Positions 41,728-47,859 of a DNA stretch of 64,000 bases are shown in pieces. The translations under genes and the position numbers were made by a program. Source of the stretch: Sedimenticola thiotaurini (GTDB lineage: Bacteria > Pseudomonadota > Gammaproteobacteria > Chromatiales > Chromatiaceae); the NCBI RefSeq assembly GCF_001007875.1, contig NZ_CP011412.1:248001-312000 (forward strand), given 5' to 3'. Below the pieces are notes generated by a model that made no database searches, was not told the DNA's origin, and saw nothing but the letters and a program-made list of their open reading frames with translations. The stretch's first letter is position 1, and each line of letters starts with the position of its first letter.

Positions 41728-43119
41728 TCAGGTTTTCGTCTCTTTCAGACGTCTCTCAAGGGTTTTGTAATCAATTTTCAATATTCTTGTGGCTTCAGAT
41801 TTGTTTCCGCCCACTTCATCAAGCACTGCTCTCGAGTAACGTACTTCCAGTTCTTTCATGGTTAAGGTCAAGGGGACAGTAAATCCAGTCGTAAGGGCCT
41901 GCCCTGAATTCTTACAGGAAAAAACCCGACTTAACACATCAATGCTGAGGTTTTCTTCGGCTGATGAGAAAATCACGGCTCTCTCTATGACATTCTCAAG
42001 CTCCCTTACGTTGCCGGGCCATTCGTACTGTCGAAGCGCGCTGATAGCCGAATCCTCTATGGTTGATACGGGACGGTGATGCAACTGACAGTATCGAGCG
42101 AAAAACTCCCGGGCGAGATCAGGGATATCTTCAGGGCGTTCCCGTAGTGGCGGGATACGGATATGGATCAGATTAATGCGATGATACAGATCCAGGCGGA
42201 AACGCCCCGATGCAACCGCATCCTCGAGCGGCTCATTGGTCGCACAGATCAGACGGAACTTAACATCCACTTCCCGGTTCGAACCGATCGGACGAACCTT
42301 ACGCTCCTGGATCGCACGTAGAAGTTGGACCTGTATCTTCTGTGTCATGGAGTTTATTTCGTCAAGAAACAGGACGCCGCCAATCGCGGATTCGAGGATA
42401 CCTTTTCTGTTTGAAACGGCGCCGGTGAAGGCACCTTGTTTGTGCCCGAAAAGTTCAGACTCCGCTATGTCATCGGCAATAGTTGCGACATTCAAGGCTA
42501 CAAAGGGACCCGCACCGCCGTGCAAGGCGTGGGCTACCAGCTCTTTTCCCGTGCCGGTTTCGCCTTCCACCAGCACATTGGCTTCAACCTCCCGGGCAAT
42601 GGCGATCATCTCGCGAAGGGAAGTCATTGCAGCACTATTGCCCAGAATGGCATTAAGATACCTGTCTTGCTGCAGTTGTACCGGCTTTCCCTGAAGACGT
42701 TGCCGGACGTAGCGCTGGCTCATCGCTTTCTGCAAGGCCGCAGAGACCCCATCCACATCGAAGGGTTTAGCAACGAAGTCAAAAGCACCTAATTTAACGG
42801 CTTTTACAGCATTATCGAGGGATGCGTGCGCACTGACCACAATGATAGGAACCTGTGGATGCCGGGACTGCATCTCCTTAATCAGATCGAAACCATCTCT
42901 ACCCGGCATGAGTAAGTCTGTAAACACCAGTTCCGGTAAATCTTCATCTATATGATCGAGAAAGTCCTGCACGGAATCGTGCTGATCCACATGCTTGACG
43001 CCAAGTTCTTTTAATATGCGTACCAGGATCTCCGCGACCGCGGTTTCATCTTCTACTACAGCGACTTTCGACAGGTTGGAGTCGGACGGAAATGATCCTT
43101 GTGTTGCATCAGATGTCAT
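41728..43119 (-). CDS. Sigma-54-dependent response regulator (NtrC family)
   Basis: A 463-residue enhancer-binding activator. The receiver (about 15-135) has VVEDE and VFTDLLMPGRDG with the phospho-Asp near 66. The AAA+ domain (about 150-380) has Walker A EGETGTGKE, the sigma-54-contacting GAFTGA intact (near 230), Walker B VLFLDEIN, and the arginine-finger stretch FRLDLYHRINLI. A Fis-type helix-turn-helix follows (about 430-463, GGNKSEATRILKIDYKTLERRL). It begins two bases after the histidine kinase stop, so the two are one operon. The sox operon next door has a sigma-54 promoter, making this the likely activator. Confidence 0.95.
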   Translation of the reverse strand: MTSDATQGSFPSDSNLSKVAVVEDETAVAEILVRILKELGVKHVDQHDSVQDFLDHIDEDLPELVFTDLLMPGRDGFDLIKEMQSRHPQVPIIVVSAHASLDNAVKAVKLGAFDFVAKPFDVDGVSAALQKAMSQRYVRQRLQGKPVQLQQDRYLNAILGNSAAMTSLREMIAIAREVEANVLVEGETGTGKELVAHALHGGAGPFVALNVATIADDIAESELFGHKQGAFTGAVSNRKGILESAIGGVLFLDEINSMTQKIQVQLLRAIQERKVRPIGSNREVDVKFRLICATNEPLEDAVASGRFRLDLYHRINLIHIRIPPLRERPEDIPDLAREFFARYCQLHHRPVSTIEDSAISALRQYEWPGNVRELENVIERAVIFSSAEENLSIDVLSRVFSCKNSGQALTTGFTVPLTLTMKELEVRYSRAVLDEVGGNKSEATRILKIDYKTLERRLKETKT

Positions 43120-43121
43120 TA

Positions 43122-44915
43122 CTAATTTACCAGTGGCGTTTCAGTTGCGATGGCATAAGGGGATGACAACGGGACCTGGTCCACCGCTTGTGTGGTTTCC
43201 GCTTCCGCAAGATTCATGAAAACTGCGATCTGTCCCAGTTGTGGATTTGTGATCCGTATGGTACCGCCAAAGGCACGGGCGATGGCCATGGCGTTTGGCA
43301 GCCCCAGGCCGGTACCATGCGGTTTAGTGGTGTAAAACAGTTCGAAAATATCCTTTTCTGATTCCGTTGCGAATCCCTGCCCGTAATCTGTTATCTCCAC
43401 GACAGCCAGTTCGCCATCCGCATAGCAGCGGTACTGCACCAATTCCCCGTTATTGGCCTCCACCGCATTGTCTGTCAGGTTGTCGAGAATCTGCCAGAGA
43501 TAGTTGCGGTTTCCATTTATCATGTAAGCCGTGTCAGAGGCGATGAGTTCATACTGGAATCGGGGATATTGACGTTTACGTTCCTGAAGATATTGTGCGC
43601 ACTGCTCATGTAACTCCAACGGTTCCAGGCTGATATTTCTCGGCCTGGAGAAGGCGACCAGGTTTTCCGCTATCTGCAAGCAGCGATTCGATTGTTCATA
43701 GATGCGGTTCATATCTGACGCTACGGTATCGTCTTTATCCCGCATCTGCCGTCTGGAGAGATCGGAGATCGCACGAATCACACTCAATGGATTGTTGATA
43801 TCATGGGCAACACGAGCAGCCAGGCGACCAATTGCTGCCAGCCTGATATCCTGTTCAACCGCTGCCTCGGCTTCCCGTAGCCGGGAAAGGTCAGACAGCA
43901 TCCGGTTAAAGCTATCGCAAAGTGCAACCGCTTCACTGCATCCCTGGATGGCGACTTTTTGGTCGAAGTCTCCATGCCCAACCGCGGCGAATGATTCCTG
44001 CAGTACACGAAATGGTCGGATCTCCTTTCTCATCAACAATAAAATAATCAAGACAAGAGCGGCAGACGATAAGGCGATACCCCCGGTTATATAAGCTTTG
44101 GATGTAAGTCCAGAGAGATCAATGGAGTCATATTTATCAACCGAAATGACCAGTGGTCGCCCATCCACTGTTGTGATGTCCAGGGTGCCGGCCATCGTTG
44201 TATTGACATTTCTGGCCTGTGGGGTGGTGACGCTGATGCCTATGTCCAGAAAGTGATCCTGCATGATGCGATCATTGAGCAGTCGGGAAAACTGGATCAC
44301 TGCGATGATCTCCTGGCCCTCCATGATTGGGGCGGTGGATACGGCCCACAATTGGCCGCCGAGATCCAGCAGACCGGCCTGAGGATAACGGGGCGTATCG
44401 ATGGGGTAGTTACCTAACTGCAGTGCCATATTGCCAATGATGTTCTCGGTGGCGACCACCAGCCCGCCATCGGCATTCCACAGTGTCATGGAATTGAGCT
44501 TATACAGGGACGTGGTCGAGGTCACAAAGGATTGCAACCAGCGTCTCGATGTCCTGCCGCTCATATAACTGAGAATGTTATTTCGCAGGTCTTTATTTCT
44601 TATCGCCGCGCTGGCGAACGCGGATAGGTCTGCAACCTGCCGCTTAACATAGGTATCGACACGCTGCACCTGTTCTCTTACCTGGGAAGTGTGGATTAAC
44701 TCCAGATCGCGACTCAGGAAGTAGTCGAGACTGAACATCGAGATCGCTGCTGAAATGGCAACCATGATGGCAGCACTGATGCTTACACGAGCGGTAAATG
44801 AGCCAAACAGCGGGCACCTTTTCCTTCTCTGATGCAGTGTTGTGGATTTGCCGGCCGGTGTCCCTGATCCACTATCAGAAGCGTCGGATACAGACGGATT
44901 TTCACTACCTGCCAT
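43122..44915 (-). CDS. Sensor histidine kinase (NtrB-like), partner of the sigma-54 activator
   Basis: A 597-residue inner-membrane kinase. A Ser/Pro-rich start is followed by TM1 (about 45-65), a periplasmic sensor of about 200 residues, TM2 (about 280-302) and a HAMP domain. The kinase core has the phospho-His in RVAHDINNPLSVI near 376, NLTDNAVEANNG near 500, DYGQGF and GTGLGLPNA. It is transcribed away from soxA and directly precedes its response regulator. The sensor is probably periplasmic and could read thiosulfate or another sulfur compound, which is an inference from place alone. Confidence 0.93.
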   Translation of the reverse strand: MAGSENPSVSDASDSGSGTPAGKSTTLHQRRKRCPLFGSFTARVSISAAIMVAISAAISMFSLDYFLSRDLELIHTSQVREQVQRVDTYVKRQVADLSAFASAAIRNKDLRNNILSYMSGRTSRRWLQSFVTSTTSLYKLNSMTLWNADGGLVVATENIIGNMALQLGNYPIDTPRYPQAGLLDLGGQLWAVSTAPIMEGQEIIAVIQFSRLLNDRIMQDHFLDIGISVTTPQARNVNTTMAGTLDITTVDGRPLVISVDKYDSIDLSGLTSKAYITGGIALSSAALVLIILLLMRKEIRPFRVLQESFAAVGHGDFDQKVAIQGCSEAVALCDSFNRMLSDLSRLREAEAAVEQDIRLAAIGRLAARVAHDINNPLSVIRAISDLSRRQMRDKDDTVASDMNRIYEQSNRCLQIAENLVAFSRPRNISLEPLELHEQCAQYLQERKRQYPRFQYELIASDTAYMINGNRNYLWQILDNLTDNAVEANNGELVQYRCYADGELAVVEITDYGQGFATESEKDIFELFYTTKPHGTGLGLPNAMAIARAFGGTIRITNPQLGQIAVFMNLAEAETTQAVDQVPLSSPYAIATETPLVN

Positions 44916-45198
44916 CGTTGTGTAGTTAAGTGTATTCAGACAGTTGATCGGGGGTTACTCAAACCGGTCCTGGATGCGGCATAGGCAGTCATCGTAGGAC
45001 GCTCGTGTCAGCCTAGCATACACGTAGCGGTATTTTTGGTAAATCGTCCCCTGTGGAACTTTCGGTTGTATGGAAACGGGATGGAATTGTATTACTCAAC
45101 AGAGTAGTTTTTTAAATCCTCTCTTTAGTGGCGCGGTGATTTTTAATTCCCGTATCAAGTATCCTAGTTCCTTAGGAAATTTACCCATGCATAAGGTG

Positions 45199-45226
45199 GC
45201 CGGTTGGGATTTGATCCCATACCGGC
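45199..45226. promoter_or_regulatory. Inverted repeat, candidate enhancer (UAS)
   Basis: Arms GCCGGT-TGGGAT and ATCCCA-TACCGGC around a three-base TTG spacer, mismatched only by one extra base. It is centred about 108 bases upstream of the predicted sigma-54 start, within the usual enhancer range for NtrC-type activators. On the minus strand it also resembles the T-arm side of a tRNA, so a tRNA remnant is the alternative. Confidence 0.45.
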
Positions 45227-45264
45227 TTTCTCGAGTATGGCGCATTAACCACCGGCTTTATTAA

Positions 45265-45277
45265 AAACAATAAGTTA
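45265..45277 (-). promoter_or_regulatory. IHF-like site
   Basis: On the minus strand TAACTTATTGTTT, compared with the consensus YAANNNNTTGATW: one mismatch. It lies between the candidate enhancer and the sigma-54 promoter, where IHF bends DNA in many such promoters. Confidence 0.45.
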
Positions 45278-45293
45278 CATTATATTCTGGCGT

Positions 45294-45309
45294 TGGCACC
45301 GTGATTGCA
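45294..45309 (+). promoter_or_regulatory. Sigma-54 (-24/-12) promoter of soxA
   Basis: TGGCACCGTGATTGCA, with GG and GC ten bases apart. It matches TGGCAC-N5-TTGCW completely. The start of transcription would be near 45320, leaving about 42 bases to the soxA ATG. Confidence 0.85.
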
Positions 45310-45361
45310 GTATTTAATTCTGACTCTCGTTACGGAGAGTGAGAAGAGTTGGAGGACTTTT

Positions 45362-46294
45362 ATGAAAAAAAGAATAAAAGCAAAACTGCTAATAGTATCG
45401 CTGTTCACTCTTTATGGGGCGGGTGCAGTCTGTGACGTGGCCGTGGAAGGGGTGGGCAAGTTCCATCCGGGCCGGGAAAAGGCTCTCCCGGGCGTCGAAG
45501 GCGACCGCAACCTGACCAACACCTACTCCCATTGGAAGGATGAAAAAGCCTTAGAGAAATCCATGGCGGAAAAGCTGGGTGATGAGGTTATGAATTATAA
45601 AAATATCCGTTGGCTCAGACCTGATGAGTTCAATGGAGAGATATTGTTTGAAGAGGCGAAGGCGGTATACACCAAGGCGGGTACTAAGGGAAAGAGCTGC
45701 GCATCCTGTCATGGCGATGATGCGGAGAAACTGGAGGGTGTCGCGGCACAGTATCCTAAGTTTGATAGCACACTAAATCGTATGGTGTCGCTGACCACGC
45801 GTATTAAACGTTGCGGTGAATTGTATGTTGGCACTGATCTTCCGGTAACTTCAGGCAGTAATAACCTGCTCGCTGCTTTCGTTACCGCTCAAAGTCATGG
45901 GGTACCGATCCAGGTCGACGTGAGCGAGGGACCGCAAAAAGCGTCTTTCGAACGCGGCAGGAACTCCTTTTTCAAACGTGTTGGCCAGTTTGGTTTCGCC
46001 TGTGCATCCTGTCACACGCCACCTTCTGTGCTAAAGAAATTACGCGGTATGCGTCCATCTACTCCCTATGGTGATGCAGCATCCTATCCGATATTTGAGT
46101 TCCCCGATTACCCGGAAAGACATTACCTGGTCACCCTGCAACATCAGATCAAGGCATGCGCTTCCATGTCACGCATGAAAACGGAACCGGAAGGTAGTGA
46201 GGAGTATACCGATATTGAAGTGTTCCTACGGGCGCTTTCCAACGGCCACAAGGTGAACGTGTTATCCAGCTACTACGGTGAGGCACTGGATTGA
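45362..46294 (+). CDS. soxA: SoxA, dihaem c-type cytochrome of the SoxAX complex
   Basis: Catalytic subunit of SoxAX, which couples thiosulfate to the SoxY cysteine in the periplasm. It has 310 residues. A signal peptide covers about 1-22. Haem sites CASCH lie near residues 113 and 214. The conserved ligand cysteine before the C-terminal domain is in IKACASM (near 265), followed by EVFLRALSNG as in other SoxA. The start at 45362 has GGAGG 7 bases before it. It is preceded by a perfect sigma-54 promoter. A 257-base gap separates it from soxX, and the order A-X-Y-Z differs from the common X-Y-Z-A. Confidence 0.95.
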   Translation: MKKRIKAKLLIVSLFTLYGAGAVCDVAVEGVGKFHPGREKALPGVEGDRNLTNTYSHWKDEKALEKSMAEKLGDEVMNYKNIRWLRPDEFNGEILFEEAKAVYTKAGTKGKSCASCHGDDAEKLEGVAAQYPKFDSTLNRMVSLTTRIKRCGELYVGTDLPVTSGSNNLLAAFVTAQSHGVPIQVDVSEGPQKASFERGRNSFFKRVGQFGFACASCHTPPSVLKKLRGMRPSTPYGDAASYPIFEFPDYPERHYLVTLQHQIKACASMSRMKTEPEGSEEYTDIEVFLRALSNGHKVNVLSSYYGEALD

Positions 46295-46551
46295 ATCCCG
46301 CAGCAGCAACGTGAATAACCGCATCCTGGTGGGTTGTTGAGATCTGCAGGTAACAGAGTCTCTTTCGGAACCGGGCTGACTATGGATCGCCTGCCCGGAT
46401 AAATGGGGCGCTTCCATGTAAAGCCCATAAGGTTAGTGGGTAGTGCGAGTGATTTGTACAGTCACCATTTATCCCGAAGTTTCGAAAGTATCCGTCTGTT
46501 CCGGTATTACAACACTGCTTGGAATTTGATTGATCATATATGGGTAAACCA

Positions 46552-47040
46552 ATGAACAACAAAGCATCTCTGAAAACAGTTTTCTGTATGTTATTTCTCG
46601 GATCGGCAATGCTTTTCAGCAATATAACCAATGCCGCCGATACTCCCGCTCGTGATACCACGATATATCCTTGTCACAGTTACACCGATCCCTGCGGTAA
46701 GTTGCCGCCTCCGCCGGTTTCAGAAGTGGAATGGAAAGGTGAATTGGGAGACCCGGAGCGGGGAAAAACCATCGCATTTTCCACTCCGCTGGGTAACTGT
46801 CTCGCCTGTCATGAGATCAATGGGGGTGACCAGTCCGGCACCATTGGGCCAAGCCTTATGAATTATGGTAGTCGTGACTTACCCTACAGCTACACCTATC
46901 AAAGGTTGTACGACACCCGTTGGTATAACCCCGATGCACATATGCCCATGTTCGGTACAAATGGCGTGCTCACTGACTCTGAAATCAGGGACGTGATGGC
47001 GTTTCTCTACTCTCTCAAGGATAGTGATCATAAGGAGTAA
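46552..47040 (+). CDS. soxX: SoxX, monohaem cytochrome of the SoxAX complex
   Basis: A 162-residue periplasmic cytochrome that takes electrons from SoxA. The signal peptide (1-28, VFCMLFLGSAMLFSNITNA) is followed by an N-terminal region with two Cys (IYPCHSYTDPCG), the haem site CLACHEINGG near 82-91, and the Met ligand in HMPMFG near 130. The helix DSEIRDVMAFLYSLKD is the usual cytochrome end. ATG at 46552 is preferred because the signal peptide begins there; a start at 46540 (four residues longer) has no better ribosome site. soxY begins 6 bases after its stop. Confidence 0.92.
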   Translation: MNNKASLKTVFCMLFLGSAMLFSNITNAADTPARDTTIYPCHSYTDPCGKLPPPPVSEVEWKGELGDPERGKTIAFSTPLGNCLACHEINGGDQSGTIGPSLMNYGSRDLPYSYTYQRLYDTRWYNPDAHMPMFGTNGVLTDSEIRDVMAFLYSLKDSDHKE

Positions 47041-47045
47041 AAAAA

Positions 47046-47519
47046 GTGATAGACATGAAACGTAGATTGGTGATGAAGCGTATAGCGATGATTGGATCGG
47101 CTATGTTCGTGGCGGGCACCGGGACACTCACTTCACGAAGTGTGCTTGCGGCAAGACCACAGGATGCTTTCGAGGCGCAGGCGCTGAAAGACGCATTGAC
47201 CCGCCTGTATGGTGAGGTTGATGCTGAGCCGAGTGACAGGATATCACTGAAGTTACCGGACATCGCGGAGAATGGTGCGGTGGTGCCGGTCACTGTTTCC
47301 AGCGATCTTACCGGTATTGAAAGTATCGCCATTCTGGCGGAAAACAATGTGAACCCGCTTGTTGCGACGTTTAAGCTCGGCCCGAAGAGTATGGGTTATG
47401 TGGGTACGCGGATAAAGATGGCCAAGACTGCCAATGTGGTAGCAATAGTAAAGGCGGATGGAAAACTCTACAGCACGCAAAAAGAAGTAAAAGTGACTAT
47501 TGGCGGCTGTGGCGGCTGA
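47046..47519 (+). CDS. soxY: SoxY, sulfur-carrier subunit
   Basis: A 157-residue periplasmic carrier. The N-terminal Tat-like signal has KRRLVMKR followed by a hydrophobic stretch (IAMIGSAMFVAGTG). The immunoglobulin-like fold ends in the swinging arm GGCGG, whose Cys holds the sulfur intermediate. GTG at 47046 is the start: the AAGGAG at 47034-47039 is at ideal distance, while the ATG at 47055 is too far. The stop is followed 25 bases later by soxZ, its partner. Confidence 0.96.
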   Translation: MIDMKRRLVMKRIAMIGSAMFVAGTGTLTSRSVLAARPQDAFEAQALKDALTRLYGEVDAEPSDRISLKLPDIAENGAVVPVTVSSDLTGIESIAILAENNVNPLVATFKLGPKSMGYVGTRIKMAKTANVVAIVKADGKLYSTQKEVKVTIGGCGG

Positions 47520-47544: not shown

Positions 47545-47859
47545 ATGGCAGATACGATAAAAATGCGTGCAAAGTTATCCGACGATATTTGCACAGTAAA
47601 AGCGATTATCAAGCACCCTATGGAAACCGGCTTGCGAAAGGATGCAAAAACGGGCAAGACTATTCCGGCCTATTTTATCAGTTCGGTTACGGTGGAACAC
47701 AATGGTGAGCAGGTTGCCTCCAGTGACTGGAGCGGTGCTGTTTCATCGGACCCGTATGTGACTTTTCTGTTTAAAGGTGCCAGTAAAGGCGACGTGGTTC
47801 GCCTGACCTGGATCGACAACCAGGGCGCAACTGATACTTCGGAAGTTAATGTCCGTTAG
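47545..47859 (+). CDS. soxZ: SoxZ, partner of the sulfur carrier SoxY
   Basis: A 104-residue protein with no signal of its own; it is carried out through the Tat system with SoxY. The fold is a beta sandwich, with the family marks IIKHPMETGLRKD near 24-36, IPAYFISSVTVEHNGE near 43-58 and the end VRLTWIDNQGATDTSE. It is the last gene of the cluster here; soxB and soxCD, needed for the rest of the cycle, are not in the window. Confidence 0.97.
   Translation: MADTIKMRAKLSDDICTVKAIIKHPMETGLRKDAKTGKTIPAYFISSVTVEHNGEQVASSDWSGAVSSDPYVTFLFKGASKGDVVRLTWIDNQGATDTSEVNVR

Follow-up and report, generated by a model that had tools for sequence, protein, structure and literature searches.

A membrane histidine kinase and an NtrC-family response regulator (RR) of Sedimenticola thiotaurini, encoded opposite an accessory soxAXYZ set, are predicted, with a probability that we put at roughly 0.8, to switch this set on through a sigma-54 promoter, tandem dyads and IHF in response to a reduced-sulfur signal. 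As judged from sequence, the domains of both proteins and the promoter elements are intact, and the elements as well as the gene neighbourhood recur in relatives. The window (the whole 64-kb stretch of DNA that was analysed) carries the following features of this system.

41728..43119, minus strand: NtrC-family RR, 463 aa; receiver, sigma-54 activation domain with GAFTGA, HTH_8
43122..44915, minus strand: membrane histidine kinase, 597 aa; N-terminal TM, periplasmic Cache-like domain, TM, HAMP, HisKA, HATPase_c
45173..45187, no strand: weaker second dyad TAGGAAATTTACCCA, candidate second activator site, 32 bases above the main dyad
45205..45219, no strand: main dyad TGGGAT-TTG-ATCCCA (TGGGATTTGATCCCA), candidate upstream activator site inside a 28-base repeat
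45238..45251, no strand: weak dyad TGGCGCATTAACCA, 32.5 bases below the main dyad
45265..45277, plus strand: IHF-like site with 1 mismatch, AAACAATAAGTTA, starting 29 bases above the -24 element
45294..45309, plus strand: sigma-54 -24/-12 element TGGCACCGTGATTGCA, full GG-N10-GC and TGGCAC/TTGCA match
45318..45345, plus strand: inverted repeat at the predicted 5' end of the soxA transcript, possible leader hairpin
45362..46294, plus strand: soxA, two CxxCH motifs, divergent subfamily
46540..47040, plus strand: soxX, above the NCBIfam cut-off; cytochrome c by Pfam
47055..47519, plus strand: soxY, GGCGG carrier arm
47545..47859, plus strand: soxZ, above the NCBIfam cut-off

The kinase/regulator pair and the sox genes

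The gap 44916-45361 separates the kinase and RR genes, which lie on the minus strand with 2 bases between them, from soxA-soxX-soxY-soxZ on the plus strand. The transmembrane kinase and the activator with an intact GAFTGA, proposed in the initial annotation, are borne out in all domains and motifs: the kinase has its H-box from residue 368 and the N and G boxes, and the RR has the receiver Asp and Lys motifs, Walker A from residue 186, GAFTGA from residue 229, and HTH_8. The name "NtrB/NtrC pair" given to them holds at the level of the family, given the receiver, the AAA+ domain with GAFTGA, the Fis-type HTH and the adjoining H/N/G-box kinase, but not for NtrC proper, as the RR scored 370.5 bits against the NCBIfam ntrC cut-off of 558.6 bits. 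A model of kinase residues 30-345 (mean pLDDT 76.3, 6 sequences) retrieved in Foldseek the Cache-type sensor domains of KinD, Mlp24 and DctB, with low TM-scores and ranked under three modelled full-length receptors. The genome has rpoN, found as one Sigma54_AID match in a 515-codon frame. A small gene of a retropepsin-like aspartyl protease (PF13975, 40801-41301) follows that of the RR on the same strand.

All four sox genes are named by NCBIfam above its cut-offs, and Pfam agrees for soxA, soxY and soxZ. We call this soxAXYZ set accessory because no soxB adjoins it. The genome contains three soxA matches, one in the window, one in a second cluster, soxYZAX (hereafter own2), and one in a canonical cluster. 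The latter, soxXA...soxY-soxB, contains soxB and comes after two ORFs, one for a kinase and one for a receiver-like protein of 202 aa; a kinase and a LuxR at the canonical sox cluster of Sedimenticola are mentioned in a passage of PMC11237559. Downstream of the own2 sox genes lie counterparts of an AMP-binding enzyme, a DctP-type binding protein, a 438-aa protein and a thiolase of S. selenatireducens, on whose proteins the domains were read.

Promoter elements upstream of soxA

A -24/-12 element fully matching the consensus had been placed 53 bases before soxA; the match stands, the distance is 52 bases from the last base of TGGCACCGTGATTGCA to the ATG at 45362. This is the sole sigma-54 site without mismatches in the window; with up to one mismatch allowed, 4 sites were found vs 3.4 expected. 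Taken by itself the match thus carries little weight, and it is the location of the site that matters. Genome-wide, TGGCAC-N5-TTGCA occurs 5 times vs 0 for the reversed control. The IHF-like site upstream was likewise found as first described; by itself, a match of this quality is expected in 13% of shuffled gaps. The 28-base inverted repeat GCCGGTTGGGATTTGATCCCATACCGGC (45199-45226), reported to lie about 108 bases from the predicted start, is real; the two arms are shifted by one base relative to each other, and its clean core is the main dyad, centred 81.5 bases above the -24 element and ~107 bases above the predicted start site. A -24/-12 element, an upstream candidate activator dyad and an rpoN gene in the genome, as expected of an enhancer-dependent sigma-54 promoter, are all present.

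The main dyad occurs in an exact copy only once in the genome, in this gap. Near-copies with 1 mismatch were found in 8 other places, 7 of them inside mechanical ORFs of at least 120 codons, and none of the 8 has a sigma-54 site (up to 2 mismatches) within 200 bases. The inverted repeat at 45318-45345 could possibly form a message-stabilising leader hairpin; repeats between promoter and start codon are present in own2 and in the locus STE_91 as well.

Relatives and the regulator tree

Our tree comprised 36 regulators: 11 of a branch that we designate clade C, 5 of clade B, 2 TspR and 18 others of this genome. Clade C forms one branch (support 100/100) with the window RR as its deepest member, 42-49% identical to the rest; clade B is its sister (support 95/96 for B + C). 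The recognition helix reads IDYKTL in 9/11 clade C regulators and IGYKTL in the other two. Eight of the 11 genes are directly beside sox (the window, STE_91, two near-identical Thiobacillus, STE_6, L108, L109, and G158, which carries soxXAYZ); otherwise the distance is ~8 kb in S. selenatireducens and own2 and 24 kb in G255. Most members of clade C were retrieved via a SoxA search; three genomes were found by the regulator alone, and in two of these it is beside sox. Clade C modules occur in Thiobacillus, Chromatiales, Burkholderiales, gammaproteobacterial MAGs and Sedimenticola selenatireducens. They share with the window the regulator clade and mostly the promoter layout and sox adjacency, and differ from it in encoding a binding protein.

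Among 8 congeners, a full-length match of the kinase was found only in S. selenatireducens (29%), and among 368 other genomes sampled from the class the kinase has matches in 3 (E 1e-40) and the RR in 6 (E 1e-95), 3 of clade C and 3 of clade B. A scan of contigs with four SoxA of the divergent subfamily gave 11 loci, with a kinase/RR module near sox or on the same contig in 8 (L101 is a fragment at a contig edge, and the module of L105 was seen in L070); no module was seen in the examined part of the contig in L102, L106 and L107.

A clade C regulator of 385 aa that lacks the receiver domain is encoded in this same genome ~10 kb after own2 soxY (L083:4571-5728), and no kinase or binding-protein match was obtained in the 20 kb of L083. 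In the own2 sox cluster a sigma-54 site, TGGCATCGAATTTGCT, is still present, together with a perfect match to the IHF consensus. This receiver-less protein may be an always-on or a borrowed activator.

Comparison with known sox regulators

For sox operons with known control, the initial annotation named other regulators such as SoxR-type repressors; passages of PMC10318464 describe SoxR of alphaproteobacteria, an ArsR family repressor, and TTHA1953 of Thermus, of the CsoR family. These also control sox, belonging however to other regulator families, not to the sigma-54 activators. Its suggestion that sigma-54 two-component control of sox may be a new regulatory system fails in part, as passages of several papers report TspS/TspR of Acidithiobacillus caldus as such a system for sox-II (PMC6335251, PMC10318464, PMC12194929, PMC10531304, PMC5093147); what may survive of it is the novelty of the regulator lineage. 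The signal of TspS is sulfide stress according to a passage of PMC10318464, and thiosulfate is named as a potential signal in PMC6335251. The two TspR of the tree were recognised from their gene order, tspS-tspR-soxXYZA-hyp-soxB, and from an exact copy of the published operator that lies between the regulator gene and soxX; a passage of PMC6335251 was the source for both the order and the operator.

That the window pair is simply TspS/TspR in another bacterium seems improbable to us. The principle is the same, with a kinase and an NtrC-family RR beside sox, a sigma-54 promoter before the first sox gene and a palindromic upstream site, and so are the target genes; the tree places TspR apart from clade C without support, and trees constrained to join TspR with B and C (p-AU 0.368) or with C alone (0.114) are not rejected. 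However, the window RR is only 36-37% identical to the two TspR, a value within the range of 28-37% shown by the remaining NtrC-family proteins that this genome contributed to the tree. The recognition helix of TspR, ISRKQL, differs from that of clade C, and its operator TGTCCCAAATGGGACA (TGTCCC-N4-GGGACA) from the main dyad of the window; the closest match to this operator within the gap differs from it at 3 positions, and over the whole window 25 such matches were counted, fewer than the 39 expected by chance. Moreover, tspS-tspR lie upstream of soxXYZA-hyp-soxB in the same direction, while the window pair is divergent from accessory soxAXYZ without adjoining soxB. The family of the window RR appears to differ from that of TspR, and the lineage of the regulator, its operator and the usual third gene of the module (PstS-like, absent from the window) may be new. 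The titles, abstract openings and passages of the open PubMed Central literature that were searched contained no description of the clade C module; Li et al. 2017, as quoted in passages of other papers, refer to "some chemolithotrophic bacteria", which may or may not include clade C.

Clade B resembles clade C in that 4 of its 5 members (G048, G034, G215, G322) have a kinase and an NtrC-family RR beside soxY/soxYZ or soxX-soxA together with sigma-54 sites, and differs in its larger kinases (632-656 aa in four) and in the recognition helix, INKSTL in three. Clade B is a second predicted sox-linked sigma-54 group, already in print as gene neighbours in Thiohalomonadales: a passage of PMC11237559 mentions a sigma-54 regulator and a kinase at the soxYZ locus of symbionts of this order. 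In the pairs L116, L117, L080 and L076, located beside soxY/soxYZ or soxX-soxA, TTGCA-type dyads were noticed by eye in L116 and L117.

Sigma-54 and IHF sites in relatives

The check for promoter conservation across relatives that the initial annotation had proposed gave a largely favourable result. For each locus we scored the best-matching GG-N10-GC site in the 250 bases that precede the first sox gene, whose start is approximate in three clade C loci. In 9/12 clade-C-linked promoters (G255 counted in) the site departs from the sigma-54 consensus by no more than 1 mismatch, vs 1.0% of random 250-base stretches (21000 draws), and many of these promoters have dyads and IHF sites at matching positions. 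The window has 0 mismatches; own2, Tb1059 (soxA and soxY), Tb1402, a near-copy of Tb1059, STE_6, L108, L109 and G158 have 1; STE_91 has 2, S. selenatireducens 3, and G255 5 (before soxY). The TspR clusters show 1 and 1, and the four scored clade B promoters 0, 1, 1 and 1.5. None of 7 controls besides G255 (two of them poorly placed, one not being a sox gene and one having a wrong start) reached at most 1 mismatch, and one (L107) had 2. Of 11 scored promoters, 6 match the IHF consensus with no more than 1 mismatch at position -29/-30 relative to the -24 element (the window, own2, Tb1059 soxA, Tb1402 soxA, Tb1059 soxY and S. selenatireducens), 3 of them exactly; no such match was found in STE_91, STE_6, L108, L109 and G158.

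It might be supposed that the pair controls its own expression or another operon, soxA being transcribed from a sigma-70 promoter and the -24/-12 match being coincidental. Single matches of this kind are indeed common, and clade C includes G255 with its sox genes 24 kb away and no sigma-54 site. The recurrence of the elements before sox in other genomes speaks against coincidence, as does the result that no sigma-70-like site was detected on the soxA strand in 44850-45400 (one of 9/12 is on the kinase strand, 0.9 expected), and we regard this explanation as slightly less probable still than identity with TspS/TspR. Sigma-54 control of the window sox genes is supported by elements recurring before sox in clade C relatives.

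Candidate operators in relatives

Candidate activator dyads recur ~70-120 bases above the -24 element in clade-C-linked promoters. Since the dyad score and the position ranges were set after the first examples, the following p values are guides only. For the best dyad centred at -95 to -70, shuffle p was 0.0025 in the window, 0.005 in STE_91, 0.0075 in Tb1402, 0.0025 before Tb1059 soxY and 0.0175 in L108, and it was not significant in 4/9 loci (own2 0.13, Tb1059 soxA 0.19, STE_6 0.19, L109 0.24). Perfect 17-base dyads are located further up in L109 (-117.5) and G158 (-108.5 and -140.5); no main dyad was found in own2 or S. selenatireducens. In 7/8 promoters, ties counted, a second dyad lies 31-33.5 bases (~32, three helical turns) from the main one, against a shuffled mean of 1.6 and 0/2000 shuffles as high (p 0.0005); the test omitted Tb1402 as a near-copy, own2 and S. 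selenatireducens as lacking a main dyad, and G255 as lacking a promoter. At a score of at least 9, 5/8 promoters have a second dyad at that spacing, and an additional one elsewhere in the tested range was found only in G158. Given the 42-49% identity of the window RR to the rest of the clade and the varying dyad lengths (13, 15 and 17 bases), no single operator is strictly conserved.

That the dyad is a transcript element or a tRNA gene remnant, its reverse strand resembling by eye a tRNA T arm, is very improbable, as ARAGORN found no tRNA, Rfam gave no tRNA match at E up to 10 (on which grounds the remnant was rejected), no terminator-like site was found, and dyads of similar form stand at similar positions in relatives.

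Proposed mechanism of soxAXYZ activation

In the two-component control favoured here, the Cache-like domain of the kinase would detect a signal in the periplasm, most probably some reduced sulfur compound, which may be thiosulfate. The kinase would then phosphorylate the adjacent RR, which is expected to bind the tandem dyads ~32 bases apart, that at 45205-45219 and more weakly that at 45173-45187. IHF presumably bends the DNA between the dyads and the promoter, allowing the AAA+ domain of the RR with its GAFTGA to open the sigma-54 RNA polymerase held at 45294-45309, and accessory soxAXYZ would be transcribed on demand.

A PstS-like binding protein (PF12849) accompanies the module in 9 loci outside this genome. 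In 7/9 its gene stands between those of kinase and RR; in L108 it adjoins the kinase gene on the side facing soxA, and in L109 it is found ~4 kb past the kinase gene. It has no tblastn match in the window, and the whole genome has one partial distant match (33% over 120 residues) without the cysteine motifs. The four aligned proteins encoded between kinase and RR (L103:7148-8164, L104:695-1663, L100, L110) have invariant cysteines in GCDxG, LCCPV and HC, which hint at sulfur or metal chemistry. A structure model of this protein was unreliable (mean pLDDT 39.7). We tentatively propose, while considering it rather doubtful, that clade C represents a separate, undescribed three-part sensor of reduced sulfur, in which the cysteine-containing PstS-like protein would bind the ligand and signal through the Cache-type kinase to the sigma-54 activator on tandem dyads three helical turns apart; the window would then hold an early-branching form that lacks the binding protein and senses directly.

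Significance for sox regulation

Few mechanisms of sox regulation are established, according to a passage of PMC10318464. Our analysis suggests that this type of sigma-54 two-component control extends beyond Acidithiobacillus and involves at least three regulator groups with different operators, and that a duplicated sox set can possess a switch of its own. The recurring layout gives exact testable sites, and the kinases are candidate thiosulfate sensors.
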